Program-made: the position numbers and the translations under genes
The notes under the pieces: model-generated
Told to the model about the DNA's origin: nothing
Database searches by the model: none
Seen by the model: only the letters and a program-made list of their open reading frames with translations
In this document: one piece after another, positions 718-31,074 of the stretch
Position numbering within the stretch: the stretch's first letter is position 1
Layout of the letters: the number at the start of each line of letters is the position of its first letter
DNA from: Lentinula raphanica
Taxonomy: Eukaryota; Basidiomycota; Agaricomycetes; Agaricales; Omphalotaceae
Direction: 5' to 3'
Assembly: GCA_027919835.1 (NCBI GenBank)
Contig: JANVFP010000007.1
Location: forward strand, 1-64,000
Length of the DNA stretch: 64,000 nucleotides

Positions 718-2808
718 CCTAATCACAAGGCGTTCATGAGTATTATTGCCAAAATACTCCGCAAAAGCAGGAACAACGAGACTGAGGAGCTTACCAGAAT
801 TCTACTAAATTTTGTCGAGCTCCCATGCTCCCATTCAGCGGAAAACATGGCCAACGCCCTCATAGGAACTCTAGATGAGTATGGAGTTCGACACAAGGTC
901 AGTTTCTTGCATTGGTTTATAGTCGAATATAATGCTCACTCACCCTAGCTCTTTACTGTTACCTGCGACAATGCATCTGCCAACACGGCAATGCTTGAGG
1001 ACTTGGAGTACCAGCTTGAGCACTTTCTTGGCAAAAAGATGCACGTCCAATGCTTCACGCACACCATAAACCTTGCAGCTAAAGGCGTCCTCCAGCCCTT
1101 CGAGTCCACGAGACGTAAGACGAATAATGACGAAGATAATGTGGTGATAGATGATTTGGAGGCCGACGTGAACAATTTGGAAGGTAACAAAGAAGAGGAT
1201 GATGATGAAGACAACGAGGAAGGGTTTGTTAATGTCCTGAATGAGCTGACAGCTGCAGAGAAGGAGACGTGGCAGCGTGAGGTTGCACCGATTAGGTCGG
1301 CTCTGTATAAGGTGAGTATGTTTGACAAATGCCTGACAAATGTCTGACAAATCTCTCACCCCTCCTTGACCCTGAACCTCGTTTCTTCTCTGCTTCCCAC
1401 CCCTCCTTGACCCTGAACCTCGTTTCTTCTCTGCTTTCCACCCCTCTTTCACCCTGAACCTTGGTTACTCATTTCTCCCCTCTTCACACAACTCTTTCTC
1501 TACGTCTCTCATTTTCCTAGACACGCCAAATCTCCTTCAAGATTATCTACTCAACAACGGATTTGCTACCGAAGTGGCGAGAACATATCGGCAAAACCAA
1601 GTTCAAAGGACAAGTTTTACCTTGCGACATTGCCACACGGTGGAACTCCACGTACGACATGCTGGCTGCCTTCCTCGAGATGAAGGAGCCAGTAACTGCA
1701 TTCCTGGATCGTTCATCTCACAAGCTGACGGATTATGTTCTGGATGACGAAGAGTGGGAGGCTGTAGAGGGGCTTGTATCTGTGTTGAAGGTGAGACATC
1801 CTGTATATTTCTTTCAATCGTGTTCTGACGACGTTCTACAGATTCTCAAGGACGCAACAACTTTCTTCTCTACCAAGTCGCCAAGTGTCGCCACTGTGAT
1901 ACCGGCTATGGACATCATCGATGAAACCTTGGCCTCTGGAATCATCGACTGTACCAATCTTCCAGCACCTGTTCGGCATGCGCTCTCACTTGGCAAAAAA
2001 ACTATGAATAAATACTACCAGCTCACAGACGACTCCTACATATACTGAATGGCTATTGGTATGTATGGATGCCTACTAGTAAATTGCTAATCATCTTACT
2101 GATCTCTCCTCTCTGCAGTTCTTCACCCATCTCTCAAGCTCGATTACTTCACCAAAGTCAAATGGCAGCAAACGTGGATCAACACTGCTGAAGCAGTCAC
2201 TCAGGAAACTTGGGAGCGGACATTCAAGTCTGCTGGTCAACCTCCTGTCTCCAGTTCTCCAGCTTCGGATTTGGAGGTATGTCTACCAGTCAATCGCTTC
2301 TTCATAGCTCTGATTGTTTTATTAGGCTCCGCACAAGACTTCAAATCTATTCTATAGCTTGATGGCAAAACAATGTCAGGTTGCTCCAGTCGCCAACGAC
2401 GGAGATGAGCTCACCTGATACCTCGCCGACAGCTGCGTTTACTGTTCTGACCCACTCCAATGGTGACTCATGAACAGGGCTGTCTATCCTACTTTGGCCA
2501 AACTCGCGCTGTCAGTTCATTCAGTGCCAGGTACGTTGTGTTGCCGCGTTCAAGTTTGCATCTTCTAACCATTCCTGATTTGATTTGTAGCATCTTCTGT
2601 CCCCGTCGAGCGGTCGTTCTCTCATGGACGCATCCTTCTCCTGCACCTTCGGAATTGCCTTTGCGCGGCCACAATCCAAGCATTGATGTGCTTTGGAGAT
2701 TGGTCGCGTGAGGATATTTTTACCAACGAAGAGCTGGTAGGTTTCTTGCTGGGCGAGACTGTTGTTGATGAGGATGGCATTTCTTTTGTTGATGCTGATT
2801 TTTTGTAA
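718..2808 (+). pseudogene. hAT transposase, C-terminal half
   Basis: Codes for the second half of a hAT (Activator-type) transposase: a catalytic-core segment with TCDNASANTAML (the TxDNAxxN acid), the VQCFTHTINLAAKG helix, an acidic insert, LPKWREHIG, DIATRWNSTYDML, and the dimerisation region ending in VERSFSHGR...FVDADFL with stop TAA at 2806-2808. Several introns are visible; the first is about 898-946. The N-terminal half is absent here because foldback element F ends at 717. Reading begins at codon 'PNHKAF', which continues exactly the 'DCWTSPN' at 25501 on the other strand. No internal stop was found in the exons joined by eye, so the break by F is the main lesion. Splicing of the 2100-2600 stretch is uncertain. 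Confidence 0.85.
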
Positions 2809-2924
2809 CCTCGAACAATTGTCAATGTCTTGTAATTCTTTTACCTACTGTCAAATAATTGGTATCTTGTATTGTAAATAGTGGTAATTGTCAGTTCTAG
2901 AGCCATTGGAAGGCCAGCCCCTCC

Positions 2925-3118
2925 TTAGGCAAGGCTCCAGTGGCTCTCGCAACAAGTACCCGACTGCAACCCGACCATAACCCGACGTCAAAAAACCCAA
3001 CACCTGTTGAGGCCGGGTACCCGGCACCCGGGGCTACGGGTACGGGTGTTAGCCGGGTCCCGGGTCGGGATGGCCTCGGGGATACCCAACCCGACCCGTG
3101 CCATACACTACCGCTTTG
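2925..3118 (+). repeat. hAT 3' end: subterminal ACCCGA/CCGGGT array, TIR and TSD
   Basis: After the hAT stop comes a dense array of ACCCGA, ACCCGG and CGGGTA motifs in both orientations, then the terminus ACCCGTGCCATACACTA ending at 3110, followed by CCGCTTTG (3111-3118). The element's other end, at 26775 on the minus strand, begins TAGTGAATGGCACGGGT and is preceded on that strand by the same CCGCTTTG. The terminal TAGTG fits the hAT YARNG rule and 8 bp is the hAT target-duplication size. The motif array is probably the transposase binding region, as subterminal repeats are in other hATs (inference). Confidence 0.85.
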
Positions 3119-3305
3119 TCATGCTACAGTAACTGTGTAGATGAGCTCGGTTTGAGAGAACGACACGTCAAAGGAGCAAGAGGAAAATTAAGCGCCAGTC
3201 GGCGCTACAGTAAATGTCACATTTGAGTCACGACTCACAGCTACAGTAATGAAAACTATGGTAGCTATGGAGCTACGGATTCCGTAGGCCCAGTTTTGAA
3301 CGGAG
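3119..3305 (-). mobile_element. Harbinger element 5' end with start codon of its Myb/SANT gene
   Basis: Read on the minus strand, this starts at a terminal inverted repeat (core GGGCCTACGGAATCCGTAGC, near 3295-3270) matching the inverted copy at about 29715-29740. It runs through a leader and ends with ATG at 3122-3120 plus one base, then the hAT target duplication. Joined to 26776 on the plus strand it gives ATG ACA AAG CGG, the first codons of the Myb/SANT-like gene there. The leader has repeated TACTGTAGC motifs. It is separated from the rest of its element by hAT and by the inferred inversion. Confidence 0.8.
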
Positions 3306-5116
3306 CTAGTGTTCATATGTGTTATACTTAAAACACATAATACACTTACCAATGAAAAGTCTCGGAACAATACTAATGTATATCATACTCAACATATTTA
3401 ACACACTCAACAATGAAAACCCTCGAAACAGTGTTCATGTGTGTTATACTTAAAACTTATCATACACTTAACAATGAAAAGTCTCGGAACAATACTAATG
3501 TATATCATGCTCAACACACTTAACACACTCAACAATGAAAACCCTCAAGAAAGTGTTCATGTGTGTTATACTTAAAACACATAATACACTTAACAATGAA
3601 AAGTCTCAGAGCAATACTAATGTATATTATGCTCAACACACTTTACAATGAAAAAAGTCGAAACAGTGCTCATGTGTATTATACTTGATACACTCCATCA
3701 ATCAATATAACATACTTAACAATAAAAAATCAGAGTAGTGTAATCACTCATAACACATATCACACTGAATACACTTCATCAGTAAGAATAACATACCTTT
3801 AATAGAACATTGTTATACTATAACACACATATAACAACGAGTTTTGGGCGCTTATTTGATGTTTTTGAGTCGAAATTCATTAATACCTAACTCAATTATT
3901 TTTGTGAGGACTTTCTGTTGTGTCAGGATGTTGTATACATCATACTCCCCTAGATACAATTTGGAGAACTCAAAATTACAGCCTGTAGGGATGGCTATAT
4001 CATGATCTTTTATGATTTAACAGTGTTTCAGGTAAATGACAATACAGAAGTGTATTAAGTATAACACACATGAGCACTGTTCCGAGTTTTTTCATTGTGA
4101 AGTGTGTTGAGTATGATATACATTAGTATTGTTCCGAGACTTTTCATTGTTAAGTGTATGATGAGTTTTAAGTATAACACACATGAACACTGTTTTGAGG
4201 GTTTTCATTGTTGATTGTGTTAAATATGTTGAGTATGATATACATTAGTATTGTTCTGAGACTTTTCATTGTTAAGTGTATTATGTGCTTTAAGTATAAC
4301 ACATATGAACATTGTTTTAAGGTTTTTCATTGTTGAGTGTATTAAGTGTATTGAGTATGATATACATTACTACTGTTCTGAGTTTTTTCATTAACAAGTG
4401 TGTTAAGTTTAATAAGCATTGAGTGTGCTGAATATTGAATGATATAAGCCATTCTAAGTGTCTGAGGGTACTAGGTGTGCTCAAAATAGCATGTACATCA
4501 TATATACCTAGATTTAGTATGATTTGGAGTGATAACATTTTTTACACTTGTCGCATATTTTTTTTATTTTGTGTTTTCAGGGCCAATGAGGCAACCCTGA
4601 ATTCTTTGAGTATTTTTTATGATCTTCTCAGATTTTTTGCTATCTGATGAGATCAAGTTCTATTTTTGGACCAATTTTCTTTTTAGGCAATTTTGATGTG
4701 CCTGTGGTAGCCAATACCTCATTGTAGCTATTTTTGGTTTCCTCTGTCATGTTTTAGCACCTCAAAATCAATATTATCATTCTATGCTTTTTTCTATTCA
4801 AAAATATCATAACCCAAAAAGGAAATCAATGACGTAATGATCTAACCCTAATCTACCTGATTTCATGATTTGCGTAAACGTAGTCACTTTGCGAAGTGCA
4901 GTACAGCTTCGCAAAGTAGATTTATTATAATATACCTATTAAATAATAAAAGAATTATTAAATATTGTTAAATATACTAAATAGCCGAGCACCCCCCGGA
5001 GCCCTACTGGCCTACCCGGAAGGGTTTGTTGAGCTTTGAGAGCAAGTCCTGTTACTTCACAAAGCTGTGGTGGAGACTTATTGAACTACTTTGCGAAGTT
5101 TTTACAGCTTCTGCTG
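3306..5116. repeat. Foldback element F' (left part): both arms and centre
   Basis: A palindromic element. One arm (3306-4040) carries a minisatellite of roughly 120-bp units built around GTTCATGTGTGTTATACTT and AATGAAAAGTCTCGGAAC; its complement returns from about 4050. The outer part of the second arm ends with TTTACAGCTTCTGCTG at 5116. The 'GAGTTTTGGGCGCTTATT' landmark near the centre is shared with 23710, 24430, 30710 and 31700. The arm at 3306 continues at 29744 across the Harbinger insertion, with ACT duplicated. No protein is encoded; short ORFs here are chance. Compared with F at 22889-25500 the spacer between arms is almost absent. Confidence 0.8.
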
Positions 5117-5719
5117 CCTGACCTGACTCGAGCCAAACACTAATAAAGGCTGAGTAGGCTACTCATTTAATGGGCCTCTTAGGCCTATTTAGGTACATGA
5201 TTCTTTTCACAAAAAATTCTAACTAGGCCTATTTGAAGGGTGCCTGAAGTGCTAGGATCTGGGGGTATCTCTGGGGAGCCTAGAGATGGAAGTGGCTTTC
5301 CTAATGCATGGCAGGAGGAGGATCAACACAACTGCTCCTGGGAGCTGGGTTCTAAGTTAGCCATGTTGGGAGCTACCTGGCTCAAAAACATTGTGAATAC
5401 AGCAAGAAAGTAGTCTCAAAGAACTTGGATACCCTAGACTATTTGAGACTACCCAGGAATTGGAGGGTATCTCTACAGACTTCAGGGATGAGAATATGAG
5501 AATATTTTTCCTGATGACTCATTACTACTAAGTTCTTCTTCCAAAGAACTGTCAAAATGAAAATTCAATTATCAGTATACTTGATGAGTATGCAAAGGTA
5601 GAACAAGAAGTATGAAGAGCCTTGAGCACTCATCCTGTGTTTATTTCCCACACACTTGAAACTACAGATTCCCACATCCCTCATAATCCTTCCATTCTTC
5701 AACTCAAAATTTGCATGAA
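5117..5719. repeat. Repeat fragments, no gene
   Basis: 5135-5250 (GTAGGCTACTCA, AGGCCTATTTAGGTAC, GGTGCCTGAAGTG) is homologous to 45715-45815. 5257-5308 and about 5410-5516 match the right end of the 2-bp-TSD MITE family (GGGTATCTCT...TTTTTCCTGATG) described at 31077. The rest is unremarkable. Confidence 0.55.
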
Positions 5720-6798
5720 CTTTTTCCTTTCCCCCCTTCATTGTCCCTGTGACATGGATTCATTCCAATCCAATATCCTTCTGTACAGTTGCTTTCTCAT
5801 GTTGCAACTCAAGCTGCTTCTGCAATGTCAAGTTGTCAACTCTTCAGCTTTTGTCAGATCAACAAATTTCTCAACAGGATTCTGACCCTTTTGCCCAGAT
5901 TTCCCAAGAGTTGCTTTCTCAGAACCTCCCTTAACTTTAGAACCTGTGCTCCTCAAGTTACTGGTGTCACTTGGCTGCTTCTGTTTCAAAAAGATTACCT
6001 TCTCTGGCAGGTCATCTTCACTACTATGGAGCTCATCTTCTTCTTTCTCATCTGCACTGTCAACATCTTTGGAAGCATCAGTTTCAATGGGAGAGGTTCC
6101 ACTAGAGAGGAACAAATCATCAAAGGATGATGACTTCAAAGAGTTGATATGAAGAAAGGGTGTGTCAATGGGTGTATCATTATTTCCGAGACCAACAGGT
6201 GTGATGTTGGGTCTTTCACCAATGCTAATGTGAAAAAGCGGGGAAGGATTTTCTTTACTTTGCCTGATTGATGAAATGAGTACATGGATGAAGAGTGAAA
6301 TGAATTCACTAGCTTACTCCATGCCATCATTGAGTGGTGAGTCTTCATACTTATGTCAATTTGTTCCTCAGAGGTGAGTCTTGCACCTGTTTCTCTCATC
6401 AAATCCTTTGCCTTTTTGAGCTTGCTAACCAGGCTACTCAACAACAGACTCAGTCAGTGCATTTGATCAAGGAAAAACTCATGGTAGAGAGCAGCTTACT
6501 CTTACAGTTTTTTCTTCATCTTTGTTGACTACAAATCTCTTCCTGCAGCTTCTTTCAGATCATTGTCAAATTGTAGCTTGTACTCCAAAGTATCAGCTCT
6601 CAACATGACCTCAGCCAACATATAATGATACTCCTTCTTCAGACAGCTATTAGACTTGGTTATAGAAGTGCCATCATTGTCAAGTCCAACAGTTCCCATT
6701 CCAGGGAACAGCCCCTGCTTAATTTTGGGGTTGTCAGTGAGCTCTGCTAACATGATTTGAATAAGCTCATCTGTCCATCTGAAGAGCCTGTTAGTCAA
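5720..6798 (-). pseudogene. SANT-like DNA-binding TE protein, decayed
   Basis: The minus strand carries the pattern of a SANT/Myb-like protein family common in Agaricomycete transposons. It has RWTDELIQIMLAEL and NPKIKQGLFPG (about 6780-6700), then a linker with KLKKAKDLMRETGA and SEEQIDISMKT (6440-6330), an acidic and Ser-rich stretch (6130-5990) and a charged tail KFVDLTKAEELTT (about 5850) running to 5720. The parts lie in different frames and the body between them is partly missing. CpG is almost absent. The same family, better preserved, sits next to the Harbinger transposase at 26776-28297, so this may be the accessory gene of an older Harbinger copy (inference). Confidence 0.6.
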
Positions 6799-6817
6799 TC
6801 TAGATCAGAGTTACAAA

Positions 6818-7471
6818 ATATGGTGTAAGGCTCTTCACGAGTCCCGGTCACCGGCCAGTACTTGCCGGTTTGACCCGTGGGATTACCTGCCGGTATGTGA
6901 CCTGCAGGTCCCGGTTACCGGCTCCAGCCACAGCCCATAACCTTAATGTAAACCCAACCCTAAACCAAACAGGACCATACACATGGTCCAAAATTTTGGA
7001 CATTTGGTATGGTCTTGTTTGGATTTGCACATGACCTTTCTGAGTGGCTGTGTACACAACTACTTTTTTTATTTTAGAGTCACAGCCACCACTACTGTAA
7101 TCTGTTGTCAACTTTCAATAGATTCAGAGGGAATATTGGGATTATACAGCTGATTTCTTTCAGTTTTATAGTATGTGCATTTTAGCATCCATTACCTATT
7201 GCATGCTTTATTATAATATTACTATTTTCTCTATTTTTACTGTATATATACCTGTAAGTTACTTGCAGATACCTATAAGTAACTGCAGGTGAACTGTGTA
7301 ATTAATGACCTGCCGGATACCTGCCAACTTGCAGGTATATTACCTGCCGGACAGGTATGTTTTCTCATGGGTCAGATTCCGGTTACGGGTCAAGTGTTTT
7401 CCTTGCCCGGTACCTGCGCCACGGGTCCCGGTCATACCTGTCCGGGACTCGTGAAGACCTTTAATATGGTG
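6818..7471. mobile_element. Non-autonomous hAT MITE, 638 bp (6826-7463) with 8-bp TSD
   Basis: Left end TAAGGCTCTTCACGAGTCCC at 6826; the right end is its near-perfect complement, finishing ...CTCGTGAAGACCTTTA at 7463. ATATGGTG flanks both sides (6818-6825 and 7464-7471), a perfect 8-bp duplication. The TIR starts TAAGG/TAAAG, fitting the hAT YARNG rule. Next to both ends are arrays of CCGGT, ACCTGC(C/A)GG and ACGGGTC motifs; the middle is AT-rich with no coding capacity. It lies between the SANT-like and coiled-coil remnants. Confidence 0.9.
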
Positions 7472-7499
7472 GCATACTTGAGGTGTTCACCTTCCTTCT

Positions 7500-9600: not shown

Positions 9601-9647
9601 GTGCAGTATGCATGGTTTATATACTAGTAAGTATGACATTGATAGAA

Positions 9648-12600
9648 GTGGAGACTTGGACTAACCAAACTTTGTTCTCCCAACTCTTTCTCACCAGGTT
9701 GGTCTTTGTGAATTTGATTCATTGTCACCGATCAAGAATAGTGCATAATGACAAGCTTCCAATATGTGATATTCTCAGCTTTTTATGAGATCATTCTCGG
9801 CATGATTCCTTTCTCTTTTTCTCTTGGCTCCCATGATCAGAATGTATTCGTCAGTTTAGAGCATTCTCAAAAGGAAATGAAATGAGGGATTGAACACATG
9901 GGATTGCTTTTGATCCAGAAAACAGGCCAGGGTACACCTTGAGTTTGGATCCATCCGTATGAATTGATCCCACTCCATCTCAAAAATTTCCAACCCCAAA
10001 ACCCAAACATATGCATGTGTTTGATACTCATGAGAACATTGAGAAGCACTGGCATTGACATATGTTCCGCTATTACAAAACTAGGTTGCTGAGCCTTGTC
10101 TGCATGAAAACAATGCTACCTCTGCAGACACGTTGTATGCTTCTTTCAATCTAATAAGACTATATATGGTCAGTCACAAGAGTAAAATTAGAAAGACCGT
10201 AGGGCACAATCTTCTGAAGATTGCCTGATATAAGTTGCTCTCTGATTTGACCATACATAGCATGATCACCATTCATGCCACAGCTGTGGTGGGCACCAGT
10301 TTTCTGGATCTTTGACTTCAATTCAAGGCTGATCTTCATCTATCATAGCCTAGACCAAGCCTCATGGCAAGCAAAGCCTCATTGTTGCAGGTTGTTGCCA
10401 ATCAGTTCAGATGCTTAATGTTAGGAAGCTATTGGTATTTGAGGATTTGTGATAAACTGTGAGAGACATGAAAGATGCAGTGCCAAGGATATGATGAAGT
10501 AAGCTCAGCAAGAGAATAACATATCATATGAGAAACTCTGCGAAGACCTTGGAAAGAATAAGATCAAAGTATAACCTATAGAGCAGTTCTAGTTGGAGTG
10601 CAATGATTGTCTTGCATTCACAAGCTACAAGTCTGACTAGAGAGACTATGGAGCAGTAGTGATGAGGCAGCCTGTGAAGAAGTGGAGACTTGGACTAACC
10701 AAACTTTGTGCTCCCAACTCTTTCTCACCAGGTTGGTCTTTGTGAATTTGTCACTAATGAAGAATAGTGCATAATGACAAGCTTCCAATATGTGGTATTC
10801 TCAGCTTTTTATGAGATCATTCTTAGCATGATTCCTTTCTCTTTTTTTCCTGGCTCCCATGATCAGAATGTATCCGCCAGTTTGGAGCATTCTCAAAAGG
10901 AGATGAAATGAGGGATTGAATACATAGGATTGCTCTTGATCCAGACAGTAGGCCAAAGCGCACCTTGAGTTTGGATCCATCCATATGAATTGATCCCAAT
11001 CTATCTCACAAATTTCCAACCCCAAAACCCAAACATATGAATGTGTTTAATACTCATGAGAACATTAAGAAGCACTGGTATTAGCATGTGTTCTGCTATT
11101 ACAAAACTAGGTTGCTGAGCTGTGTCTGCATGAAAACAATGCTACCTCTGCAGACACGTTGTATACTCCTTGTGATCTAATAAGACTATATATGGTCAGT
11201 CACAAGAGTAAAATTAGAAAGACCTTAAGACGCAATCTTCTGAACAGTGAATATTGCCTGATATAAGTCCTTCTCACCAGGTTGGTCTTTGTGAATTTGA
11301 TTCATTTTCACTGATCAAGAATAGTGCATAATGACAAGCTTCCAATATGTGATATTCTCAGCTTTTTATGAGATCATTCTCAGCATGATTCCTTGCTCTT
11401 TTTCTCCTGGCTCCCATGATCAGAATGTATCCGCCAGTTTGGAGCATTCTCAAAAGGAGGTGAAATGAGGGATTGAATACATAGGATTGCTCTTGATCCA
11501 GACAGTAGGCCAAAGCGCACCTTGAGTTTGGATCCATCCATATGAATTGATCCCAATCCATCTTACAAATTTCCAACCCCAAAACCCAAACATATGAATG
11601 TGTTTGATACTCATGAGAACATTGAGAAGCACTGGTATTAGCATGTGTTCCGCTATTACAAAACTAGGTTGCTGAGTCTTGTTTGGATGAAAACAATGCT
11701 ACCTCTGCAGACACGTTGTATGCTCCTTGCAATCTAATAAGACTATATATGGTCAGTCATGAGAGACTTTAAGGCACAATCTTCTGAACAATGAATATTG
11801 CCTGATATAAGTCCTTCTCACCAGGTTGGTCTTTGTGAATTTGATTCATTGTTACTGATCAAGAATAGTGCATAATGACAAGCTTCCAATATGTGATATT
11901 CTCAGCTTTTTATGAGATCATTCTCGGCATGATTCCTTTCTCTTTTTCTCCTGGCTCCCATGATCAGAATGTATCCGCCAGTTTGAAGCATTCTCAAAAG
12001 GAGATGAAATGAAGGATTGAATACATAGGATTGCTTTTGATCCAGACAACAGGCCAGGGTGCACCTTGAGTTTGGATCCATCCATATGAATTGATCCCAC
12101 TCCATCTCAAAAATTTCCAACCCCAAAACCCAAACATATGTATGTGTTTGATACTCATGAGAACATTGAGAAGCACTGGCATTGGCATATGTTGCCACTA
12201 GTACAAAACTAGGTTGCTGAGTCTTGTCTGTATGAAAACAATGCTACCTCTGCAGACACATTGTATGCTCCTTGAAATCTAATAAGACAATATATGGTCA
12301 GTCACAAGAGTAAAATTAGAACAACCTTAGGGCACAATCTTCTGAAGATTGCCTGATATAAGTTGCTCTCTGATTTGACTATACATAGCATGATCACCAT
12401 TCATGCCACAGCTGTGGTGGGCATCAGTTTTCTGAATCTTTGAAGGCTTCAACTCAAGGCTGATCTTCCTCTATCATAGCCTAGACCAAGCCTCATGGCA
12501 AGTAAAGCCTCATTGTTGCAGGTTGTTGCCAATAAGTTCAGATGCTTAATGTCAGGAAGCTATTGGTATTTGCGGGTTTGTGTTAAACTGTAAGAGACAT

Positions 12601-12810
12601 GAAGGATGCAATGCCAAGGATATGATGAAGTAAGCTCAGCAAGAGAATAATATATGAGAAGCCGTGCAAAGACCTTGTAAAGAATAAGATCAAAGTATAA
12701 CCTATGGAGCATTTTGAGTGTGAGTGCAATAATTCTCTTGCATTCTCAAACTACAAGTCTGACTAGGGAGACTATGGAGCAGTAGTAGTGATCACTGATG
12801 AGGCAGCCTG
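9648..12810. repeat. Tandem array of ~0.55 to 1.0 kb units
   Basis: The segment beginning near 'GGTTGGTCTTTGTGAATTTG' occurs at about 9700, 10725, 11270 and 11817. Two units are long (about 1.0 kb, 9650-10678 and 11812-12810) and two are short (about 545 bp), the short ones lacking the second half. A further partial unit lies at 13902-14400. On the minus strand each unit keeps an open frame of 74-98 codons with the core WDQF, MDPNSRC, CLDQ, QSYVFNPSFH and LRMLQTGGYILIMGAR. Copies differ mainly by transitions. Unequal exchange is the likely source. The encoded peptide is not recognised. Confidence 0.75.
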
Positions 12811-13019
12811 TGATTGTGGTACAAAAGTTAATACAAAGGAGGAAGCACCAAGGCCCATTGCTGAGCATACTTATATCAAGAAATATAGTTCCAGCCTTCA
12901 ACAATTGTCACAGTGAGAACAAAGGTTGGTGGGCCAATAAGCACCCAAAAACAACAAACCCAAGGCATGATCTTGAATTGATTGTGCTGCATCTTTCTTT
13001 CCATCCCATTTCAAGGAAC

Positions 13020-13672
13020 AGAGACACTGATTCTGTTGAGGGCTTTGTGGAAGTGCTGAATGAGTTGACTGCAGTAGAAAGGAAGATGTGGCAAGCTGAT
13101 GTTGCTCCAATTAAATCTATTCTATTCAAAGTGAGGCTATTTTTATATTTTTTCTCACCTCACTTTGGCCCTGCACACCCCTTGGCCCAGACCAAGGTTA
13201 TTTTCACACCTTGCTTCAACCCTGTACAGCTCAGAGCCAAATGTTCATTTCTCATTTTTCCCTTCATTCTCCCTCATTTCTTTCCTGTGCTCTTCCATTG
13301 CTGTATCCCTCATTCTTTAATCCTCTGATGTCTGAGCTCCTACCTATACTCATTCTATCTTCTTCTTCACAGACTCACAAAATATTGTTCAAAATTATAT
13401 ACTCATCAACGAGGTTGCTACCAAAGTGGTGTGAACATATACTAGCCTCCTCTGTTGGTGTCAAACAGTCATTCTCTCAGGGCCAGACTTTGATTTCACA
13501 CCTTTGCAACTGGCTTTGCACATCAACTATTCAAGCATTCATGTGCTTCAGCAATTGGTCACACAATGATTTGTTCATGAACAAAGAGCTAGTCCAACTC
13601 CTTCTTGAAGACATGGTCAATGATGAAAACAATGATGACGTTGTCATTGTAGAGGATGATATTTTACAGTAG
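13020..13672 (+). pseudogene. Internally deleted hAT transposase copy
   Basis: Homologous to the hAT at 718-2808. Block one (13020-13130) matches EGFVNVLNELTAAEKETW... and is followed by a 240-bp intron-like stretch. Block two (13375-13450) matches FKIIYS and LLPKW.EHI. Block three (13510-13672) jumps straight to the C-terminal dimerisation region (CTSTIQAFMCFSNWS, ELVQLLLEDM, VEDDILQ) with stop TAG at 13672. The whole TRWNSTYD region is missing. Decayed hAT subterminal motifs follow at 13749-13901, ending ...ACAAACACTA like the TIR at 3110. It is too decayed to act, and its CpG content is very low. Confidence 0.75.
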
Positions 13673-13901
13673 GCAAATGTTATACTATTGCTATGTATAC
13701 ATTGCGTCCAATACATATTGTACAATTTGGCTACCATAAACCTGACTCACTCAACTAATACCCAGGCTTGACCCAAATATATAAAACCCAAAATCCATAG
13801 GAATTGAGTACCCGGCACCCAGGATCTCAGGTACAGTTGATGGCCAGGTCCTGGGTTGGAATGACTCTTGAAGCACCCAACCCAGCCCAAGACAAACACT
13901 A

Positions 13902-14832
13902 GTTTGGAGTATTCTCAAAAGGAGATGAAATGAGGGATTGAATACATAGGATTGCTCTTGATCCAGACAGTAGGCCAGAGCGCACCTTGACTTTGGATCC
14001 ATCCCTATGAATTGATCCCACTCCATCTCAAAAATTCCCAACCCCAAAACCCAAACATATGCATGTGTTTGATACTCATGAGCACATTGAGAAGCACTGG
14101 CATTGGCATATGTTGCCACTATTACAAAATTAAGTTGCTGAGCCTTATCTGCATGAAGACAATGCTACCTCTGTAGACACATTGTATGCTGCTTGCAATC
14201 TAATAAGACAATATATGGAACCCTGCAAGGACCTGTAAAGAATAAGATCAAAGTATAACCTATGGAGCATTTCTAGTGTGAGTGCAACAATTGTCTTGCA
14301 TTCTCAAGCTACAAGTCTAACTAGGGAGACTATGGTGCAGTAGTGATGAGGCAGCCTGTGATTGTGGTACAAAAATCAATACAAAGGAGGAAGCACCAAG
14401 GCCCATTTGGCATTAAACATATTTATATCAAGAAATACAGTTCCAGTCTTCAACAAATATTTCATCATTTGATGTTACATTCAATCATCAATTGCAACAA
14501 TCATTTGGAATAATTGTCACTGCAAGAGCAAAGATCAGTGAGCCAAACAGCACCCAAAAACAACACACCCAAGGCATGATCTTAAATTGTGCCACATCTT
14601 TCTTTCCATCTCATTTCAATTTGAAATGGCTGACATTGGCATTCATTCATGGTTCTCATCTCACCACTCATACTTGCTGATGACAGATATCATCTATGAC
14701 TATTATAATTCTAGGACTTCATTTGTGGAGTACTCCTCTTGTTGCATTCACAACAGTATTCTCCACAGACAAATTGGATTTTCATGTATCATTGGTTAGT
14801 GCCAATATTTATCCAATCCAGTGAACTATGCC
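13902..14832. repeat. Partial array unit and flank
   Basis: 13902-14630 repeats the middle and end of the tandem unit at 9648-12810, including the minus-strand open frame (14119-13905) and the segment shared with 12790-13015. 14630-14824 is unique here and shows no convincing gene. Confidence 0.6.
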
Positions 14833-16620: not shown

Positions 16621-17472
16621 CCAAATCACACAATAAATATTGCCTACATACAATGTCAAGCTATTTGCAACCACTTTCAGCAAAACACACTGTGTGTCCT
16701 CAACACCTTTGATCTTTCTCTGATAAGAGTTTTCAAGTACTGATTAAATTCCTTATTCAAGATGTAGATAGAATTTCAGTTAGGCTACATGTAGTTCCTG
16801 GATCTCTCTGTCGATTTGCTTGATTTTGTTTTTCAAATCATTGTCCATCTGGATATTCATGAAATAAATACTTGATATCTACAAAACATACTGCTAAGAT
16901 CAAGAATTGGAGAATAAAGTTTGGCGGAGAAGAATTTTGCTGGCTTTGGAGCAAGTGCTTAAAATTGACTACCTGTGGGAGTCTTATTTTTAGCAGAGGG
17001 GCTGCTCATACTCATTGCCTAGAGGAGGGGCTGGGTGTCCTGGCTGCAAAGTGTAACTCAAGCAACGAGGAAGTGGTGGTCTGAAAGAAACCTTGAAAAT
17101 TTTATGCAGTGTGAAACAAAGAAAAGTCACATGTACATCATTGGTTCCTCTATAAAAGTATTAATTTTGAACAAACACCCCAGGTCAGGACCAGGCTGAA
17201 ATAAACAGAAATAAACACATTGATCAAACACAAGTCCTATACACTCATAGTAAACATGAATCAAACAGCCTCTAATAAACCCTACCAATGATATTAAACA
17301 CTGATATATAAACTTTGTAGCAATAAACCATGATCCAATTTAAACAATACAAATAAACAGTTCAGTAACTAGTTACTACAATAAACATTGGGAAACAACC
17401 ATGACTAACATCTGAAATAAACTGCACATCATGAATAAACAAAGAATCAGGAAGTTCGGGACTACTTACTTG
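16621..17472. repeat. AATAAAC motif array beside the KDZ gene
   Basis: Between about 17190 and 17445 the heptamer AATAAAC occurs about eight times on + (near 17199, 17208, 17274, 17320, 17351, 17380, 17415, 17434). This resembles the subterminal arrays of the other elements here, and it lies just downstream of the KDZ stop codon. I did not find the matching inverted array beyond 21566. 16621-17170 holds nothing I can support. Confidence 0.5.
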
Positions 17473-20400
17473 CTAGATCATGGAATGGTTGCGCTTTGAA
17501 GATTCCACCTGAATACTATCCTCACTGGAGACAGGAACACGTACATCTCCGAACCCTTGAGCGTGTGTAGTTGGGTCCTTGAACATCGGTCGATTTACCC
17601 AACTGAAGCAGAAGAAAGATTAAAACTAAATCATCATGAGTTCAGAGTAAAGCTTACCGGTCGAAGTTGAAATGCTTCTCTTCCTCCTGTCGCCACTTCA
17701 TGACATGGTCCGCTAGGGAAAACCCTTCTGAAATGATGTAAAGACTTGGTATACCACATTGGCTGTATTTTGCTTCAGCATCAGCACGTAAGGCCTCCAG
17801 AATATCACAGTGCTCCTTTGCATATGCAACATGGCCAGGCGAAGATGAATAAGGGGTTCGAGCTAATTCCATCCATGCATCGCGGGCATATGCTGATGCA
17901 TTAATGACGCGCATGAACTCTGCATGCTTCTTTTCGACTTCTTCTTGCCAACGTTCGAAGTCTGCCTCTGCTCGGGCCCATTGAATTCTATTATCTATTG
18001 GACATCATCAGTGGTTAAGGGTTTGAGGACAACGACATGTGTACTTATCTGCTCCCACTGCTCGATTTCCTGCATCGACATATTCTTCATTCTCCCAGCA
18101 GACCAGATCCAGCCATCTGCATCAACACCCGGCTGATCAGCATGCTCTAGAACTTCCTTAGTTGGCTCAAACACAGAGGTGACTTGCGCTTCAGATTGTG
18201 TAACAGATCTGGCTGAAAGGACATAAGCAAAATGAACTGCTTGACATGAACACAACGAACCTTGCCGAAGAGACATATGAGTGCCTATCATAATCTCTCA
18301 GATCAAATCTTCAAATGTAGCTCAAGACGTACCATGATAATTCAAAACATTGACGTTGAACACAGGTTCTTCACCCAACCCTTCCCCTGGTCCTTCCGTT
18401 GACCTTTGAACCACATCGTAGCCAGAAATCGCTCCCGATGCAGTTCTCGCCACCCAACTACTATGTCCGGCACTTGTCATACCCCATAAATTCCCTTCAA
18501 GAACTCGTGAGTCCCCCGGTGTCCAACGTTGTTCTGTGGATTTACGAAAGGTGTCCTTTAGCTCCAGTGGGGGCCATTTTGCTTCGTCAAGATTGTCTAG
18601 AGCTTTGAGCGCGCCCCAAAAAAGGTTATAGTCACCCATAAGATCATTCCGCTTTGATTCAATCTTCCGAATGCCGGCTATTGATTTTGTGTTTGCATCT
18701 TGCCCGCGGGCATCTTTGATCTTGCGTTCAAAAGCAGAGGAAAGATTTTTAACAGTAGTCTGCAGATTGCTGATCGTCTCCCCGAGCGCCGCTTCAAGCA
18801 TCTGAACCTGCTTTGTTGCGAGTGGAAGAAGACGTAACGCCCCACGTTCTGCAGTGGTGAAATCAGAAGGGAGGAGAAGGGATTGTTCTTTGGGATATTG
18901 CTTGTCGGGCTCCTGAGATAGGCAAGAACCAATGGAACCCATGTAACGTTTTTGCATCTTACGCCACACATCTATATCAGCTGCAAGCTTGCTTCATTGA
19001 GACGTGAGTGATTTTGGTGGCGGGCTTGAGCATGTGCTTGCCAGTTTGAAAACACAATGCCTACCGAATATTTAGATTGATTTCAGGTCAACCATTTCTG
19101 CACTCACTGTATCTGAAACAGGCGCAGCCCTTCCAATAACCAGGACGCAATGGCCCCGAGTTTAACATTTCCTGATGACACACAGATGGTATTGCTCGAA
19201 GACATCTCTTTGTCGACAATCGCCTTCAGAGTAGGTGCTACAAAGACGATTGTTATCACCCTTTCGAGCAAAGTGGATTATGTACATACCTTTCTGGTTA
19301 TTATGCGAATAGATACTAACGACTGAACACTTGCTCTTTGGATCTACACATGGCGAGCAATCCATTGCATTCCATTCCACAACTTTGGATTCAAACAGAA
19401 CACAGAGACCTGCAAAGAAATCACGTTTCTCGACATATTTGACCTTTGCGTCATTGAGATCTTTCAGAAGTTGTCGCACTATCTATCGTTAGCATGCTGA
19501 ATGAACAATGAACTCAAAAACTCATACCTAAACTCACAACCTTCCGCCAATTCCAATCGCCATAGTGCATGATCAATGTATCGATACAGTGCCCATTGCT
19601 CATTTGCAGAACAGACGGACCTATGGCGTTGAAGATCGCCCATCCATACTCTGCAGTTTTGCCGTGAAAATGCCCCATGCACATCTTGTACATGTAGCAA
19701 TAGAGGTAATCACACCCCTCGTGATGGTTTTTGACATGGCACGCCGGTATGGTCCAGCGGGCCTTCTCAACTACATCTGCATCGTCCTTATGGTAGAGGC
19801 ACCAACACTTGACTATATGGACTGTGAGGCTACACATATTGTCATAGCTGAACACTCGGGGTGGCCAATTATCTTTATCGAAACGACACGACTCAACGCG
19901 AAGCTTTACCCCGAGGTCGACTGTGGCATGACTGATAAGATGTTAGTAGGCTGTGGCATAATATATCCACCAGATCACTTACTTCTCGCCCCCTTTCATA
20001 TCGACACTTGAACAGACTAATATATGTGAACACTGAACATTGACATTGCCGGTTACGCTCATGTTCTTGAACTTGGCCCGATTAGCGCTGTTTTCGACTT
20101 TGAGGTGATTACAGGTGGCTTTCTGTTGATGAACACCCATGAGCATAAGATAGAGGAATTAGTCAGTCAAAATACCTCTTTTTGGAGCTGAGGAACGGTT
20201 TGAAGGTAGTGATCGTGACGCTTCTGTTCTGGCATGTAGGCTCTGCCAGCAAAAAGAGATACATCATTGGGGTCATTGTTCTTTTCGTAGTTCCCGGTTT
20301 TGCTGTTCCCGTCAATGGTATCATAGATCATATGAAGATGCCTTTGAATGTGTGAAGTTCAGTGTAAATGAGTGATAGAGATCCACGTACATCAAGTGCG

Positions 20401-21566
20401 GTGGGGTCTTCTCCCAACCTGGTTTGATGTTGACATTGGCCTCGGGGCAGGCAGGGCAGTAGACCATGAGATTATTTGTCGGACGTCGGGGATACAGCTC
20501 ATTCATGCCATTGCCATGAAGTCTTCCGAATTGTTTTTCTGCTTCGAGAAGGGGCCAGATGCGTGAAACGAACTGAAATTGTTTGTAGACATCCTATGTG
20601 AGGTCTCATTAGACCACGCAAAGTTGTTCAATTACATGTGGAAACTTACCGGAACATTGCCAGTGAAAACATTGTCAGTTTTGCGGCGCAGTGCACGTAT
20701 GTAGTCATAAGCCCTGATTTTTGATTGAAGCATCATCAGCTGCCAGTGTCGAAGGGTTCCAAACGTGAACACTGTTTGTGGTTCTGCCACAGTCGCTGGA
20801 AAGAAATCTGCATCTATCAGTTGTCGCCACTTATTGGAGTCGCAGCAGCCACAGAACACGACTTTGGTAGCGTGGACTTTGGTTTCGTTATCGACCAGCG
20901 TCATGTGTAGAGGTTTCGAGGCTCGAGGACACACATCGCCTTCATGTCCAAGTGGAATCCCATAAGAATCGGGTCCGAGTACTGTCGATATGTTGTGGCG
21001 TTGAAAGTATCCCCGTACGCCGTTCCAAACATGGGCCCAGTGAAGTGGTTGGTTCCGGTGAACACGAACCCAACAGGAGTGACATAGAGGAGCAAATTGC
21101 TTGCATTCGAGGCATCGAACCTCACAAAGTGCTTCGTTACAGGAGCAAGGCATTCCTATACGTGGATCGGCCTCTTTCTGCATGATCAACTGTGCCGCAG
21201 GTTCGAAGATATCAGCGTATTCTTCCAGAAGTTTGGCACGCTGGTGATGTCGATCAGTTATTGCTGAATCATGATTGCAGCAAACAAACCTACCTGAGTG
21301 CGAGTGTCTTCAGCGAAGTCTGCATTGTGATCTTCGTTTGACAAATTGCTGTGAGAGATATCTGAGAGAGCAGGGACCATTGGTGGCGGCGCAGAAGAGC
21401 CAGAAGCTACCGAGGGGGAGATTCGAGGCAGAGTTTGGGTTCGAGTCGCTTTTTGTCCATTGTCGATAACCGTGAAAGTCTTCTTGGGAGCATTCACGTT
21501 GGAGAATTGCAGGGTGTTTCGCTCGAGCTCGTTCTTCGTGATTTTGCGCCGTTTTGTTGTGGCCAT
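17473..21566 (-). CDS. KDZ (Kyakuja-Dileera-Zisupton) transposase with CxC2-type cysteine cluster
   Basis: Cut-and-paste DNA transposase of the KDZ superfamily. Start ATG 21566 (MATTKRRKITK...). Exons by eye: 21566-21294, 21240-20650, 20593-20391, 20341-20176, 20122-19983, 19931-19528, 19478-19290, 19237-19108, a short uncertain exon near 19060, 18980-18333, 18212-18045, 17994-17658 and 17602-17473. Exon 2 holds the cysteine cluster (CSCNEALCEVRCLECK, then FCGCCDSNKW). Exon 4 has the DGN motif (TIDGNSKTGN), exon 5 VTGNVNVQCSH, exon 6 YDNMCS and GHFHGKTAEYGW, and exon 12 the RIQWARAEADFERWQEE region. Frames join without an internal stop apart from the uncertain exon 9, which may use a GC donor. 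CpG content is normal, unlike the remnants to its left. In exon 6 the usual acidic positions of the 'DGE..E' motif read H and K, so activity is doubtful. Confidence 0.85.
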
Positions 21567-22359
21567 GATGGTGAGGAACAAGAGCAAGTTGTGGCTGAGC
21601 ACGAGAGCCATCAGCCACCCGCAACCACTTCGATAACGATGATATCACAAACCTTGTCCAAGCATAGAGAACAATAGTCAAACCATGAAAACCAATCTAT
21701 GAACATCCTATGTCATTATACTAGTCATTAGTACAGATGAGATGCTCGATAATGAGCATACCTTGCAAGACCAGACCTGCTCGATGTCATCCTTGAAAAA
21801 CCCCAACAACATAGAGTCATTGGATGCCCAGAAATCAGCCGACAGCTCAAAGCCATCGTACTCATCACAGTATCTATCGTCAGCCACAGCGACAGCGCAA
21901 AGCCACCCACTGCTGGAAGTAGACAGTGCAAAGCCATCGTGCTCGTCGTTGGAGAGGTAAGAGTAAGTACCACTGTTAGTCTCTTAGTAATTATGACAGC
22001 CGCTTGTAGCCAGGCTTGATCCAAAAGTGGCAATCACTCTTTTTGGGCGCTTCATTCAACGATTTTGGGCTATACAACACTCATCACCTTCTTGTCGACG
22101 CCAACAATGAGCACGATGGCTTTGAGCTGTCTGCTTGCAGTAGTCGATGGCTTTATGCTGTCACTAAAGTTCTCTCTATTCGGTCTTGGCTTTGTGCTGG
22201 TGCCGCTGTCATTGTCAAGTGTTCAACTTTGCGTTGACTCTGACTTATTCTTTTCCGCGAGACTTTCTACGATTTGGAGGGATGTTCCTCGTCCGACATC
22301 AGACTACATTCCATGTGTGGCATCCCGAAAACTCGTTTTTAATAGAAGGAGGTGCTACG
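21567..22359. repeat. Region upstream of KDZ with imperfect inverted repeat
   Basis: Segments 21840-21955 and 22090-22200 are imperfect inverted repeats containing ACAGCTCAAAGCCATCGT and its complement (also GCGCAAAGCC and GTGCAAAGCC variants). The several ORFs over this stretch on both strands are by-products of the repeat. It may be the 5' subterminal region of the KDZ element or its promoter; no clean TIR was found. Confidence 0.4.
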
Positions 22360-22829
22360 TTACTTGTACAGATGCTCCAATTGCAAATCCCAATCCTTCA
22401 CGTCGTCCACCTCCATTGATTTCAAAACCACAACTTTGACCTCGTGGATAGGAAACAATGTGTTCCATCCGATACGCCGCCAACCCTTGTCTAACACGAA
22501 CCGTTCCAGCTCTGGTCCTTTTTTGGTTAACCCTAATACATGCAGGTCGCCGGAGATCATTGCTAGAGAAATGTAAGGGCCTCGGTTTTTGGTGAGTTCA
22601 ATGGCAATTGACCGAGCGGGTGTATCATTCTGATCAACTTGTCAGTGCAGCTTGAAGACAAGTTCAGCAGGAACAATACCTTAGTCCAAGTTATCACCGT
22701 AATCGCAGGCGCGGGACCAGAGGATTCCGGACGACCACGATTGCCAAATGCCCCTGAAGGTAAGTTGAGCCTGTACTCATCAGAGTCCAGCTCATCAATC
22801 TCAAACTCGCTGGTTCGTTCACTAGGCAT
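22360..22829 (-). CDS. Small unrecognised two-exon gene
   Basis: Start ATG 22829: MPSERTSEFEIDELDSDEYR... Exon 1 ends at WTK, a 50-nt intron (GTATTG...GATCAG) is removed, and exon 2 reads NDTPARSIAIELTKNRGPYI... through LHVLGLTKKGPELERF and GWRRIGWNTLFP to LYK and stop at 22360. About 138 residues, soluble, acidic N-terminus, no signal peptide or membrane segment. A further splice at LYK could replace the last codons. The good frame and splice sites argue for a real gene. It lies upstream of the KDZ transposase on the same strand and could be an accessory gene of that element or a captured host gene. Function unknown. Confidence 0.55.
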
Positions 22830-22888
22830 ATTTTCCTCTTCTCCTCTAGCTTCACCTCATGTCAATGGACTCGGCAAAGAAAATCGTG

Positions 22889-25500
22889 CTAGGGTCGTTG
22901 GCCCTGAAAACGCAAAATAAAAAAAAATATGCGACAAGTGTAAAAAATGTTATCACTCCAAATCATACTAAATCTAGGTATATATGATGTACATGCTATT
23001 TTTAGCACACCTAGTACCCTCAGACACTTAGAATGGCTTATATCATTCAATATATTCAGCACACTCAATGCTTATTAAACTCAACACACTTGTTGATGAA
23101 AGAACTCAGGACAGTAGTAATGTCTATCATACTCAATACACTTAACACACTCAACAATGAAAACCCTCAAAACAGTGTTCATATGTGTTATACTTAAAAC
23201 ACATAATACACTTAACAATGAAAAGTCTTGGAACAATACTAATGTATATCATACTCAACATATTTAACACACTCAACAATGAAAACCCTCAAAACAGTGT
23301 TCATGTGTGTTATACTTAGAACTCATCATACACTTAACAATGAAAAGTCTCGGAACAATACTAATGTATATCATGCTCAACACACTTAACACACTCAAAA
23401 ATGAAAACCCTCAAACAAGTGTTCATGTGTGTTATACTTAAAACACATAATACACTTAACAATGAAAAGTCTCAGAGCAATACTAATGTATATCATGCTC
23501 AACACACTTTACAATGAAAAAAGTCGGAACAGTGCTCATGTGTATTATACTTGATACACTTCATCAATCAATATAACACACTTAACAATAAAAAATCAGA
23601 GTAGTGTAATCGCTCATAACACATATCACACTGAACACACTTCATCAGTAAGAATAACATACCTCAAACAGGACATTGTTATACTATAACACACACATAT
23701 AACAACGAGTTTTGGGCGCTTATGGGCGCTTATTTGATGTTTTTGAGTCGAAATTCATTAATACCTAACTCAATTATTTTTGTGAGGACTTTCTGTTGTG
23801 TCAGGATGTTGTATACATCATACTCCCCTAGATACAATTTGGAGAACTCAAAATTACAGCCTGTAGGGATGGCTATATCATGATCTTTTATGATTTAACA
23901 GTGTTTTAGGTAAATGACAATACATATGTCCATGTATTGCATAGATACCAAAGCTGTCTCATGGGGAGAGCACTCCTACAGTCTACTAACAGTGTATGAA
24001 CATGATTCAGATACTCACCATGACCATTGGACTCTGTAATATACATCTACATATTTCATGTATATTGGTGATATGTATACTTGCATGTAACTACAGATGT
24101 CATACTCAATGACTCCCATTGTAAGTCTCTTGGCTTTATGACACAGAGTAAGCATAGAATAGATTGTAGGATGTCTCCTTTCATTGCCCAGAAGGAGTTT
24201 GACTTCAGAACATGGATGTATGCACTGTGATTTACACAAAACAGTGTAAAATCATAAAAGATCATCATATATCCAGCTCTATAGGCTGTATTTTTTGGTT
24301 CTCCAAATTGTATCTAGGAAGGTACGATATAAACAACATTCTGACACAATATACAGCCCACATAAAAAATTATTGAGTGTGTTATCAATGATTTTCGACT
24401 CAAAAACACCAAATAAGCGCCCATAAGCGCCCAAAACTCGTTGTAATTAGTATAAGAATGTCCCATTATAGGTGTGTTATACTTACTGATGAAGTGTGTT
24501 CAGTGTGATAAGTATAATGAGTGATTACACTACTCCAAGTTTTTGATTGTGAAGTGTGTTATATTGATTGATGAAGTGTATTAAGTATAATACACATGAG
24601 CACTGTTCTGAGTTTTTTCATTGTGAAGTGTGTTGAGTATGATATACATTAGTATTGTTCCAAGACTTTTCATTGTTAAGTATATTATGAGTTTTAAGTA
24701 TAACACACATGAACACTGTTTTGAGGTTTTTCATTGTTGAGTGTGTTAAGTGTATTGAGTATAATATACATTACTACTGTTCTGAGCTTTTTCATTGTCA
24801 AGTGTGTTAAGTTTAATAAATTGAATGATATAAGCCATTCTAAGTGTCTGAGGGTACTAGGTGTGCTAAAATAGCATGTACATCATATATACCTAGATTT
24901 AGTATAATTTGGAGTGATAACACTTTTACACTTGTTGCGTATTTTTTTTATTTTGCATTTTCAGGGCCAATGAGGCAACCCTGAATTTTTTGAGTATTTT
25001 TTATGATTTTTTCAGATTTTTTGCTATCTGATGAGATCAAGTTCTATTTTTGGACCAATTTTCTTTTTAGGCAATTTTGATGTGCCTGAGGTAGCCAATA
25101 CCTCATTGTAGCTATTTTTGGTTTCCTCTGTCATGTTTTAGCACCTCAAGATCAATAATATTATTCTATGCTTTTTTCTATTCAAAAATATCATAACCCA
25201 AAAAGGAAATCAATGACGTAATGATCTAACCCTAATTTACCTGATTTCATGATTGCTGTAAATGTAGTCACTTCGCGAAGTGCAGTACAGCTTTGCAAAG
25301 TAGATTTATTATAATATACCTATTAAATAATAAAAGAATTATTAAATATTATTAAATATACTAAATAGCCGAGCACCCCCCGGAGCCCTACTGGCCTACC
25401 CGGAAGGGTTTATTGAGCTTCGAGAGTGAGTCCTGTTACTTCGCAAAGCTGTGGTGGAGACTTATTGGCCTACTTCGCGGAGTTTCTACAGCTTCAGCTG
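22889..25500. mobile_element. Foldback element F: long inverted repeat, left arm truncated
   Basis: Left arm 22889-23930 and right arm about 24215-25500 are inverted copies around a roughly 280-bp unique centre. Landmarks in mirror order are the 'TTTTCAGGGCCAA' block (22889 and about 24960), the roughly 121-bp minisatellite (units near 23173, 23295 and 23415, and their complements at 24580-24760), and 'AAGCGCCCAAAACTCGTTG' beside the centre. The right arm ends CTACAGCTTCAGCTG at 25500, followed by GATTAGG, the complement of CCTAATC at 718. The left arm stops abruptly at 22889 and lacks the outer half kilobase. No protein is encoded. Confidence 0.85.
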
Positions 25501-26533
25501 GATTAGGTGACGTCCAGCAATCTAGCTCAACAGGCAGCAAATATTCATATTCCTAAAGCGCTTGGTGAGTCGTCCTGTTTCGTCTTCGGTTGTCTGAGTG
25601 CTCACCTGTAACTCCTTGGCCAGACTTTCTTTTGCAGCTGCATATAATTTCCTCACATCGCGCGCAACGGTCTTCTCACTTGGCACGTACTGGCTTGGGC
25701 GTCCTTCTTTCTGCAGCCATCAAAAACTCCGGTCTTGCACGATTCGGAATGGGCGAGACAATTCGGCCACCCAACGTGCGGTTACCACTCTGTTGGAAAG
25801 CTAAGGACAGGTCTAGTGAGGGAGTGAAATGGGTTTGGATTCACCGCATCTTTTCCTTGTCAGGGGAGCGTGTTGAGAAGGTCTTGAACCAGGCTTTGAC
25901 TGTAGTGACAACCACGGTGAGTGTCGTTTGCTTCCCCTTTGAAAACTCTCTGACAGCAGCTCGTGCTTGATCCAGGGTACTCTCTTTTATTGCTGCAACT
26001 TAGCATCTTCACCACAACATCTCTTTACATGGTTGCGCATGTTCCCTATACTAATCGTGAGTTCTACATGTTTGCTCAACTCAACAAGGCTGACCTACCT
26101 GTAGATCCCTGGTCTCCTATCTGCACACCTTGTCGTATCTTCTCACCGCATTGTATACATCGATACACAAGGTATCCTGGCTTGTCGTTCTTTGCAAATT
26201 CAATCTCTGGCTCTTCGTGGAAGAACGCGTATACAGGGGATTTTCGTTTCTTCAAGTCTTTTTCTACCGGATTAGGTGAGTGCAGTGCCTCTGTTGTGTA
26301 TGGGACCACTGACTTATTTGAGCTACAGCTGCCTCCCTCGCCTCTTTCACTTGCTCGGTTGTGTCCACAACATCATCATTGTCATTGTTGTCGTCATCCT
26401 GCCCACCTATACTTGCCGCTGATTCATGTTGTTCCTCTTCGGTGTCTGACCATATGGTCCTTGTCCTTTTCGTTCGCTTTTTTGGCTTTTTTGTTGCATT
26501 TGTGTCAGATGCTGGCTTGCTTCGTTTGGGCAT
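25501..26533 (-). pseudogene. hAT transposase, N-terminal half
   Basis: Start ATG 26533: basic nuclear-localisation-like head (MPKRSKPASD...KKPKKRTKR), an acidic linker, then a BED-type zinc finger with SPVYAFF, YRCIQCGEKI and the downstream MRNHVKRCC in the next exon. ARWVAELSRPFRIV and GRPSQYVPSEKTVARDV follow, and after an intron VELDCWTSPN, which contains the first catalytic Asp. It ends at 25501 where F begins. In-frame TGA codons occur after 'RSF' (about 25710) and near 'EKM' (about 25840), each one transition from CGA or TGG. With 718-2808 this makes one complete transposase length. The first exon joints are approximate. Confidence 0.8.
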
Positions 26534-26679
26534 GTTCTGTAGCTCCCGTAGTCACTGTAGCTGAGTTGTACAAATTTTTTTTAATGATTCTCAAAACGTC
26601 GCCGTCTATCTACCCATTACATGTACATAATGAATGACATTTGCTGAAGTATTGAGAAGCCGAGAAGCCGCCTGTAGAC

Positions 26680-26783
26680 CTCCTCTCAGTGCCGGGTGTG
26701 CTACTCGGGTGCCGGGTTCCCGAATGCCCAGCCGACCCAACCCGACGCAACCCGGCACACCCGTGCCATTCACTACAAAGCGG
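26680..26783 (-). repeat. hAT 5' end: subterminal array, TIR and TSD
   Basis: On the minus strand the element begins TAGTGAATGGCACGGGT at 26775 and continues into TGCCGGGTT, GTCGGG and GGGTGCCG motifs, mirroring 2925-3110. The target duplication is 26776-26783 (CAAAGCGG on +, CCGCTTTG on -), identical to 3111-3118. It lies just 5' of the hAT start codon, so the promoter probably overlaps the array. Confidence 0.85.
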
Positions 26784-29613: not shown

Positions 29614-29689
29614 TCGTAGGTAGATAATTGAGAGTTGAGACAGTTGGCAGTAAAAAAATTATAGTGATGTCACGCTAGCTATGAAAATA

Positions 29690-29746
29690 ATAGATAGCTA
29701 TGGAGCTACAGATTCCATAGGCCCAGTTTTGAACGGACCTACTGTT
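29690..29746 (-). repeat. Harbinger 3' terminal inverted repeat and 3-bp TSD
   Basis: ATAGCTATGGAGCTACAGAT...GGCCCAGTTTTGAACGG at about 29692-29740 is the inverted match of 3258-3300. Beyond it stands ACT (about 29744-29746). At the other end, read on the minus strand, the F' arm reads ...TATGAACACT directly before the TIR. Without the element the arm would read ATATGAAC-ACT-GTTTTGAGGG, exactly the sequence seen uninterrupted in other F copies. A 3-bp duplication is the Harbinger rule. Confidence 0.75.
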
Positions 29747-30549: not shown

Positions 30550-31074
30550 GAACAGTACTGATATGTATTATATCTAACACAGTTGGCAATAAATACTCAA
30601 AACAGAGTTATCAGTCACTGTACTTAACACCCTTAACAGTTAAAAAGTTGGAACAATATTGTTTGATATACATAACACACTCATTGTTATACTATAATAC
30701 ACTAATAACAACGAGTTTTGGGTGCTTATTTGGTGTTTTTGAGTCGAAATTCATTAATAGCACACTCAATAATTTTTTTGTGGGCTCTATATTGTGTCAG
30801 GATGTTGTTTATATCACATTCCTCTAGATACAATTTGGAGAACCCAAAGATACCACTTGTGGGGCTAGCTATATTGTGATCTTTTGTAATATAACAGTGT
30901 TTTATGTAAATGACAGTGCATACACCCATGTTATGAAGTCAAATTACTGCTGGGTCATGAAAAGAGTCATCCTACAGCCTATTCTATGCTAATTCTATGT
31001 GATACAGCCAAGAGATCTGTAATGGGGGTCATTGAATATGACATCTATTGGTTCATGTCAACGGCGCAGACATC

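Follow-up and report, generated by a model that had tools for sequence, protein, structure and literature searches.

A nest of transposon insertions split into inverted halves, with foldback-like F sequence at the junctions, in a genome assembly

Single transposon insertions at three nested levels now lie as inverted halves in the assembly, with F sequence at the junctions. The window analysed is the 64,000-nucleotide stretch formed by bases 1-64000 of contig C7 (1.6 Mb), which is very probably from a strain of Lentinula raphanica (Agaricales); the genome comprises 49 Mb in 75 contigs, and comparisons were made with paralogs within this one strain's own assembly. From outside to inside, the order before the inversion was an F element, a PIF/Harbinger-like element, a hAT element, and another F. 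The layers carry target duplications of 3 bp (ACT, Harbinger-like), 8 bp (CCGCTTTG, hAT), and 7 bp (CCTAATC, inner F), and all three pair only with the left piece re-inverted. As assembled, the hAT halves are ~22.4 kb apart in opposite orientation. A preliminary description had proposed one hAT insertion with an F inside it and its halves inverted, and this is borne out by empty sites in paralogs and by a third nested duplication.

At the innermost level, an F arm that runs off the contig start (1-717, +) adjoins the C-terminal half of the hAT with its 3' terminus (718-3110, +), while the N-terminal half with its 5' terminus (25501-26775, -) adjoins the right terminus of a second F (22898-25500). 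The letters and coordinates first reported for these junctions are right: CAGCTTCAGCTG ends at both 717 and 25500, the first copy of the 7-bp duplication, CCTAATC, occupies 718-724 (+), and the second, on the minus strand, reads GATTAGG on the plus strand at 25501-25507. The same is true of the claimed hAT duplication, of which the first copy, CCGCTTTG, occupies 3111-3118 (+) and the second (-) appears as the complement of this sequence at 26776-26783, both beside matching hAT termini; the terminus TAGTG[AT]ATGGCACGG is present at both outer ends.

Intact hAT paralogs show what this site looks like when it is not interrupted. All five copies that span it elsewhere in the genome (on contigs C30, C15, C14, C3, and C17) lack F there, and matches to the N and C halves, searched separately, overlap by exactly 7 bp in each of them. 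The site letters were read in four of the five copies and are CCTAATC in three and CCTGATC on C3, so that intact copies have a single 7-bp sequence where the window has two flanking F sequence. Codon continuity across the site, another of the earlier claims, is found in the paralogs themselves, in that intact copies give DCWTSP(N/D)HKAF (four of five, read by eye). This count leaves out C20:589843-592208, which matches the C half only, from query base 9 on, as well as distant relatives that match one side only at 67-82% identity (e.g., on C19, C36, C11, C1, and C46 and at C17:424566). Separately, a further split copy may exist on C3, where a 5' and a 3' hAT end ~125 kb apart (C3:76502-79894 and C3:201097-204436) have flanks that nearly match (AGTAACTC/AGTAGCTC). 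The interrupted element belongs to the hAT superfamily, having the 8-bp duplication, terminal inverted repeats, and, in its C-terminal half, the dimerisation domain PF05699 (23.9 bits against a cut-off of 21.4). Homologs of another of its exons are named hAT-like transposase in two entries, and six other pieces compared with Pfam (four plus two) matched no hAT model.

Paralog comparison places the hAT flanks within a Harbinger-like element, whose left end, with a terminal inverted repeat and the start codon of its second gene (3122-3120), lies at 3119-3307 (-), and whose remainder, with the right terminal inverted repeat, lies at 26784-29740 (+). Two of the three right-flank paralogs (C4 and C14 of C3, C4, and C14) are contiguous across the hAT site: in both, the reversed 3119-3312 sequence (72% identity) directly precedes the sequence from 26784 (79-80%). 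The match to the third, on C3 (94%), stops at 26791, short of the hAT site, with no upstream match. Judged against these paralogs, the hAT inserted after codon 4 of the second gene, breaking it; the start codon today lies inverted, at a distance of 23.7 kb. The terminal repeats ending at 3307 and 29740 are inverted and agree in 53 of 60 bp. A frame of the C4 paralog matches PF13359 (7.9e-16) and corresponds at 84% to window positions 28802-28344 (-), a DDE_Tnp_4-type reading frame; a second gene, expected to be MYB-like in PIF/Harbinger elements, is present as well, and its first-exon region in the C4 paralog is without a Pfam match. With its 3-bp duplication, terminal inverted repeats, and DDE_Tnp_4-type transposase frame, the element is PIF/Harbinger-like.

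The outermost layer is new here, adding to the two duplications already described. The Harbinger-like element splits a single F of the beta subfamily into pieces at 3308-5116 and 29741-30550, the first carrying one copy of ACT (the reverse of 3308-3310) and the second beginning with the other. This F is whole only after re-inversion, and its pieces joined with one ACT read like the unbroken F at 23174-23176. Its outer ends, 5116 and 30550, are without a matching 7-bp duplication in the flanking letters. The preliminary description had held that its two duplications and the codon continuity were hard to obtain by chance. We can now exclude chance because all five spanning hAT copies are uninterrupted, two of three Harbinger paralogs are contiguous, and there is the additional layer of an F split by the Harbinger-like element with its ACT duplication.

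Two other repeats in the window lie outside this nest. A Gypsy-type retrotransposon at 37337-45044 has reverse transcriptase and integrase frames identified by Pfam and a gag assigned by position only; it is a recent insertion because its 522-bp ends (37337-37858 and 44523-45044) are 100% identical. A repeat array at 9644-14619 consists of units of ~0.55 kb and more that are roughly 88-93% alike.

F elements are foldback-like, with long inverted arms that form most of the element. They are near-perfect palindromes: one copy on C20 is 98.8% identical over 2.6 kb, and the arms of a C1 copy are 100% identical over 1250 bp. A 12.9-kb copy on C20 (820022-832916) was considered as an autonomous F, and the 6 kb of it read by eye resembled a LINE insertion with reverse-transcriptase-like frames. 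The two window arms that share CCTAATC belong to two subfamilies, 84% alike (80% by BLAST). Of 110 diagnostic columns, 106 are alpha in the arm at 1-717 (one beta, three neither), which is 97.9% identical to one arm on C16, while the arm ending at 25500 is beta at 88 of 110 (13 alpha, nine neither), with only two window arms as the beta reference for these columns, and is 95.4% identical to the arm ending at 5116. The arm ending at 25500 stays beta up to its last 14 bp; that at 1-717 is alpha throughout.

The other end of the F at 22898-25500 is of a different kind. Here, a truncated copy of a KDZ-associated (CxC2) element (20632-22897, -), whose paralogs on C20 and C27 continue beyond the break, is joined to an internal position of the F arm and not to an F terminus. 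The sequences meeting at 22897/22898 are non-homologous, with about one base of overlap by eye, making this an illegitimate junction, which either arose with the inversion or could be a truncation that predates it. A search of the assembly for the continuation of the KDZ copy did not find the reciprocal partner of the junction; close copies occur only on C20 and C27, and what else matches on C17 and C20 is short or diverged (72-90%). The contig starts inside an F arm at position 1, the leftward sequence is off the contig, and the reciprocal breakpoint would lie beyond that end.

Across the genome, the F terminus pattern has 190 matches, compared with three for a reversed control. We read the flanks of 127 termini, taken from a list of 100 of the 190 places, a variant list of 29, and other loci. 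Among these 127, there are seven exact 7-bp partner pairs, against a mean of 0.58 and a highest value of five in 2000 column shuffles; none of the seven extends to 8 bp. Five pairs are normal insertions; the two inverted ones span 24.8 kb at the C7 locus and 143 kb at C20:113798/256898. Alpha elements with two ends (within 13 kb) number 16, a count that includes an added C14:1093013/1096072 and omits C3:2023381/2040029, whose ends are 16.6 kb apart, as well as four pairs in which the other end is of a different type. Five of the 16 have matching flanks of exactly 7 bp and 11 are unmatched. Arms are 95.8-100% alike in the 11 alpha elements with full arms measured; the low arm values of C20:113798-114958 (303 bp) and C33:106599-108524 (126 bp) come from short stretches and are not used as full-arm values. 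Genome-wide searches for partners of eight unmatched termini, two of them C20 outer flanks, found none with four degenerate patterns that covered the exact terminus only and were not validated on a known partner. The partner searches being empty, unmatched flanks alone are no proof of rearrangement, and F may also insert without a duplication. At C20:391814 and C20:397370, F-type termini 5.6 kb apart have 12-bp flanks that are reverse complements (GCCTTGACCTCG/CGAGGTCAAGGC), the arrangement being either an artefact or a palindromic duplication that exceeds F in size.

In the C20 case, F ends at C20:113798-114958 and C20:256898-259498 (F elements of 1.2 and 2.6 kb) share a 7-bp duplication across 143 kb, and both junctions are inside one contig. 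On C14 and C45, the flanking DNA (98-99% identity) runs on without a gap and contains GCAAACC once. A 73-aa translation across the join is unbroken at C14:541880-542098 and C45:139014-139232 (100%), and a diverged copy at C7:727789-728007 (84%, one stop) also spans the site. The case rests on DNA contiguity in paralogs, because the 73-aa frame is perhaps not the gene's true frame; another frame is weakly T5orf172-similar, below the Pfam cut-off. The partner ends are 97.4% identical across 303 bp; the rest of the comparisons, made among the three full arms, yield 99.9-100%. The F that carries one partner end has arms 99.9% identical and is not visibly chimeric, whereas its C20 counterpart is chimeric. 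On their outer sides, the two elements have flanks that are not mutual partners, and no partner for them was found in the assembly. One duplication pair matches in each case, with the other side off the contig at C7 and the other flanks not partners on C20.

We consider it probable that the nest opened at its innermost F and that an exchange between F elements inverted the segment, separating the hAT halves. A beta F would have received the Harbinger-like element, this element the hAT, and the hAT the inner F in successive insertions, after which the nest would have broken at the innermost F. Its partner in the exchange would have been either an F beyond the contig start or the F joined to the KDZ copy near 22.9 kb, and the DNA from position 1, or from left of it, to the F at 22898-25500 would have inverted. 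The hAT C half would thereby have come to lie inverted, ~22.4 kb from the N half. The mismatch of alpha and beta arms could reflect conversion within the palindromes or, alternatively, a switch located precisely at the F terminus. We infer from sequence that the event took place in the cell, that F-F exchange was its cause, and that the mismatch arose by conversion or a terminus switch.

Recombination between F arms, put forward in the preliminary description as the likely mechanism, stands in part. F sequence is indeed present at the breakpoints, but a plain exchange does not account for partner ends only 84% alike or for the illegitimate join at 22897. In the passages of the Galileo study considered here, recombination between copies gives chimeric copies and near-identical partner ends (PMC2775673). 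Plain recombination is unsupported because the model predicts both features, whereas the partner ends are 84% identical at C7 and 97.4% over 303 bp on C20, where one copy is not visibly chimeric. It does not fit unless conversion followed, and the alternative is a switch at the F terminus.

In its strictest form, such a switch would be a transposase exchange exactly at F termini and not homologous recombination within the arms: a pair of F copies would serve as the two ends of a single large element, and the stretch between them would be flipped. This reading is possible, and we offer it tentatively; it is a version of the F-F exchange preferred above, with which its probability overlaps. It agrees with the arm at 25500 keeping beta sequence until 14 bp before its terminus, opposite an arm that is alpha throughout, and with the C20 F that has 99.9% identical arms around one partner end and is not visibly chimeric. 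The hybrid-element model predicts non-chimeric copies, as described in those parts of the Galileo paper (PMC2775673). On the other hand, conversion within a palindrome can likewise homogenise its arms, one of the two C20 elements is chimeric, and no F transposase was identified here, with one long F copy read in part. Somewhat more doubtful is the broader proposition that in this mushroom palindromic F elements flip chromosome segments by terminus switch, repeatedly so (the 24.8-kb and 143-kb cases), and leave behind non-chimeric copies whose 7-bp duplications are swapped.

An assembly error is a less probable explanation for the arrangement on C7, and we think it unlikely. The contig end piece (1 to ~22.9 kb) would have been joined the wrong way at an F repeat, the true nest being unbroken; the contig does start inside an F arm, and one wrong join could mimic a rearrangement. 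A related anomaly exists in this assembly, where C8 starts inside a hAT (C8:1-2081) whose 3' flank, CTCTTCGC, recurs 5' of a hAT on C15 (842995-848324). The C15 copy differs in its 3' flank, so that an 8-bp duplication is common to it and the C8 start, a sign of a misjoin or of translocation at repeats. Against an error at C7, the 22897/22898 junction joins non-homologous sequences, which shared sequence alone would not yield, the hAT-side F arms, only 84% alike, would not easily be mistaken for each other provided that the sequencing relied on long reads, and the C20 case has both junctions within one contig. A further reading, extremely improbable, has two hAT copies of independent origin that both received an F at one and the same site and then lost opposite halves. 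hAT and F are both multicopy, but F is at the site in none of the five other spanning copies, and we reject this reading because matching duplications would be required at three nested levels.

Altogether, these results show that a single genome is enough to recognise inversions when target duplications are matched between transposon copies and the matches are checked against intact paralogs, the approach that also yielded the second, 143-kb case on C20. If real, the palindromic F family would be a repeated source of rearrangement in Lentinula. Among the open-access matches listed, subscription papers being mostly outside that scope, there was no report of foldback-element inversions in mushrooms. 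In the agaric Marasmius oreades, transposon copies are likewise associated with an inversion, according to the parts of the report consulted; there, the elements are not foldback, and one of two hAT copies was inverted in culture with the 2.5-kb sequence between them deleted (PMC9674265).

The C7 arrangement is well supported as a transposon-linked inversion of a known kind, that of Galileo, with an unusual pattern at the element ends. In alternative transposition in maize, a known transposase acts. The sections of the maize work considered here describe inversions made by transposon ends, as proposed for F, in a gene system that was studied directly (PMC8225341). The closest likeness is to Galileo of Drosophila buzzatii, for which the passages considered here describe foldback-like elements with long inverted arms and 7-bp duplications at an inversion, the duplication partners on different copies in opposite orientation, and a single copy in the uninverted sequence (PMC2775673). 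As far as those passages go, both duplication pairs are exchanged in Galileo, whereas F has one pair per event, and Galileo copies are chimeric with near-identical partner ends, whereas the F partner ends come from different copies (PMC2775673). Galileo belongs to the P superfamily.
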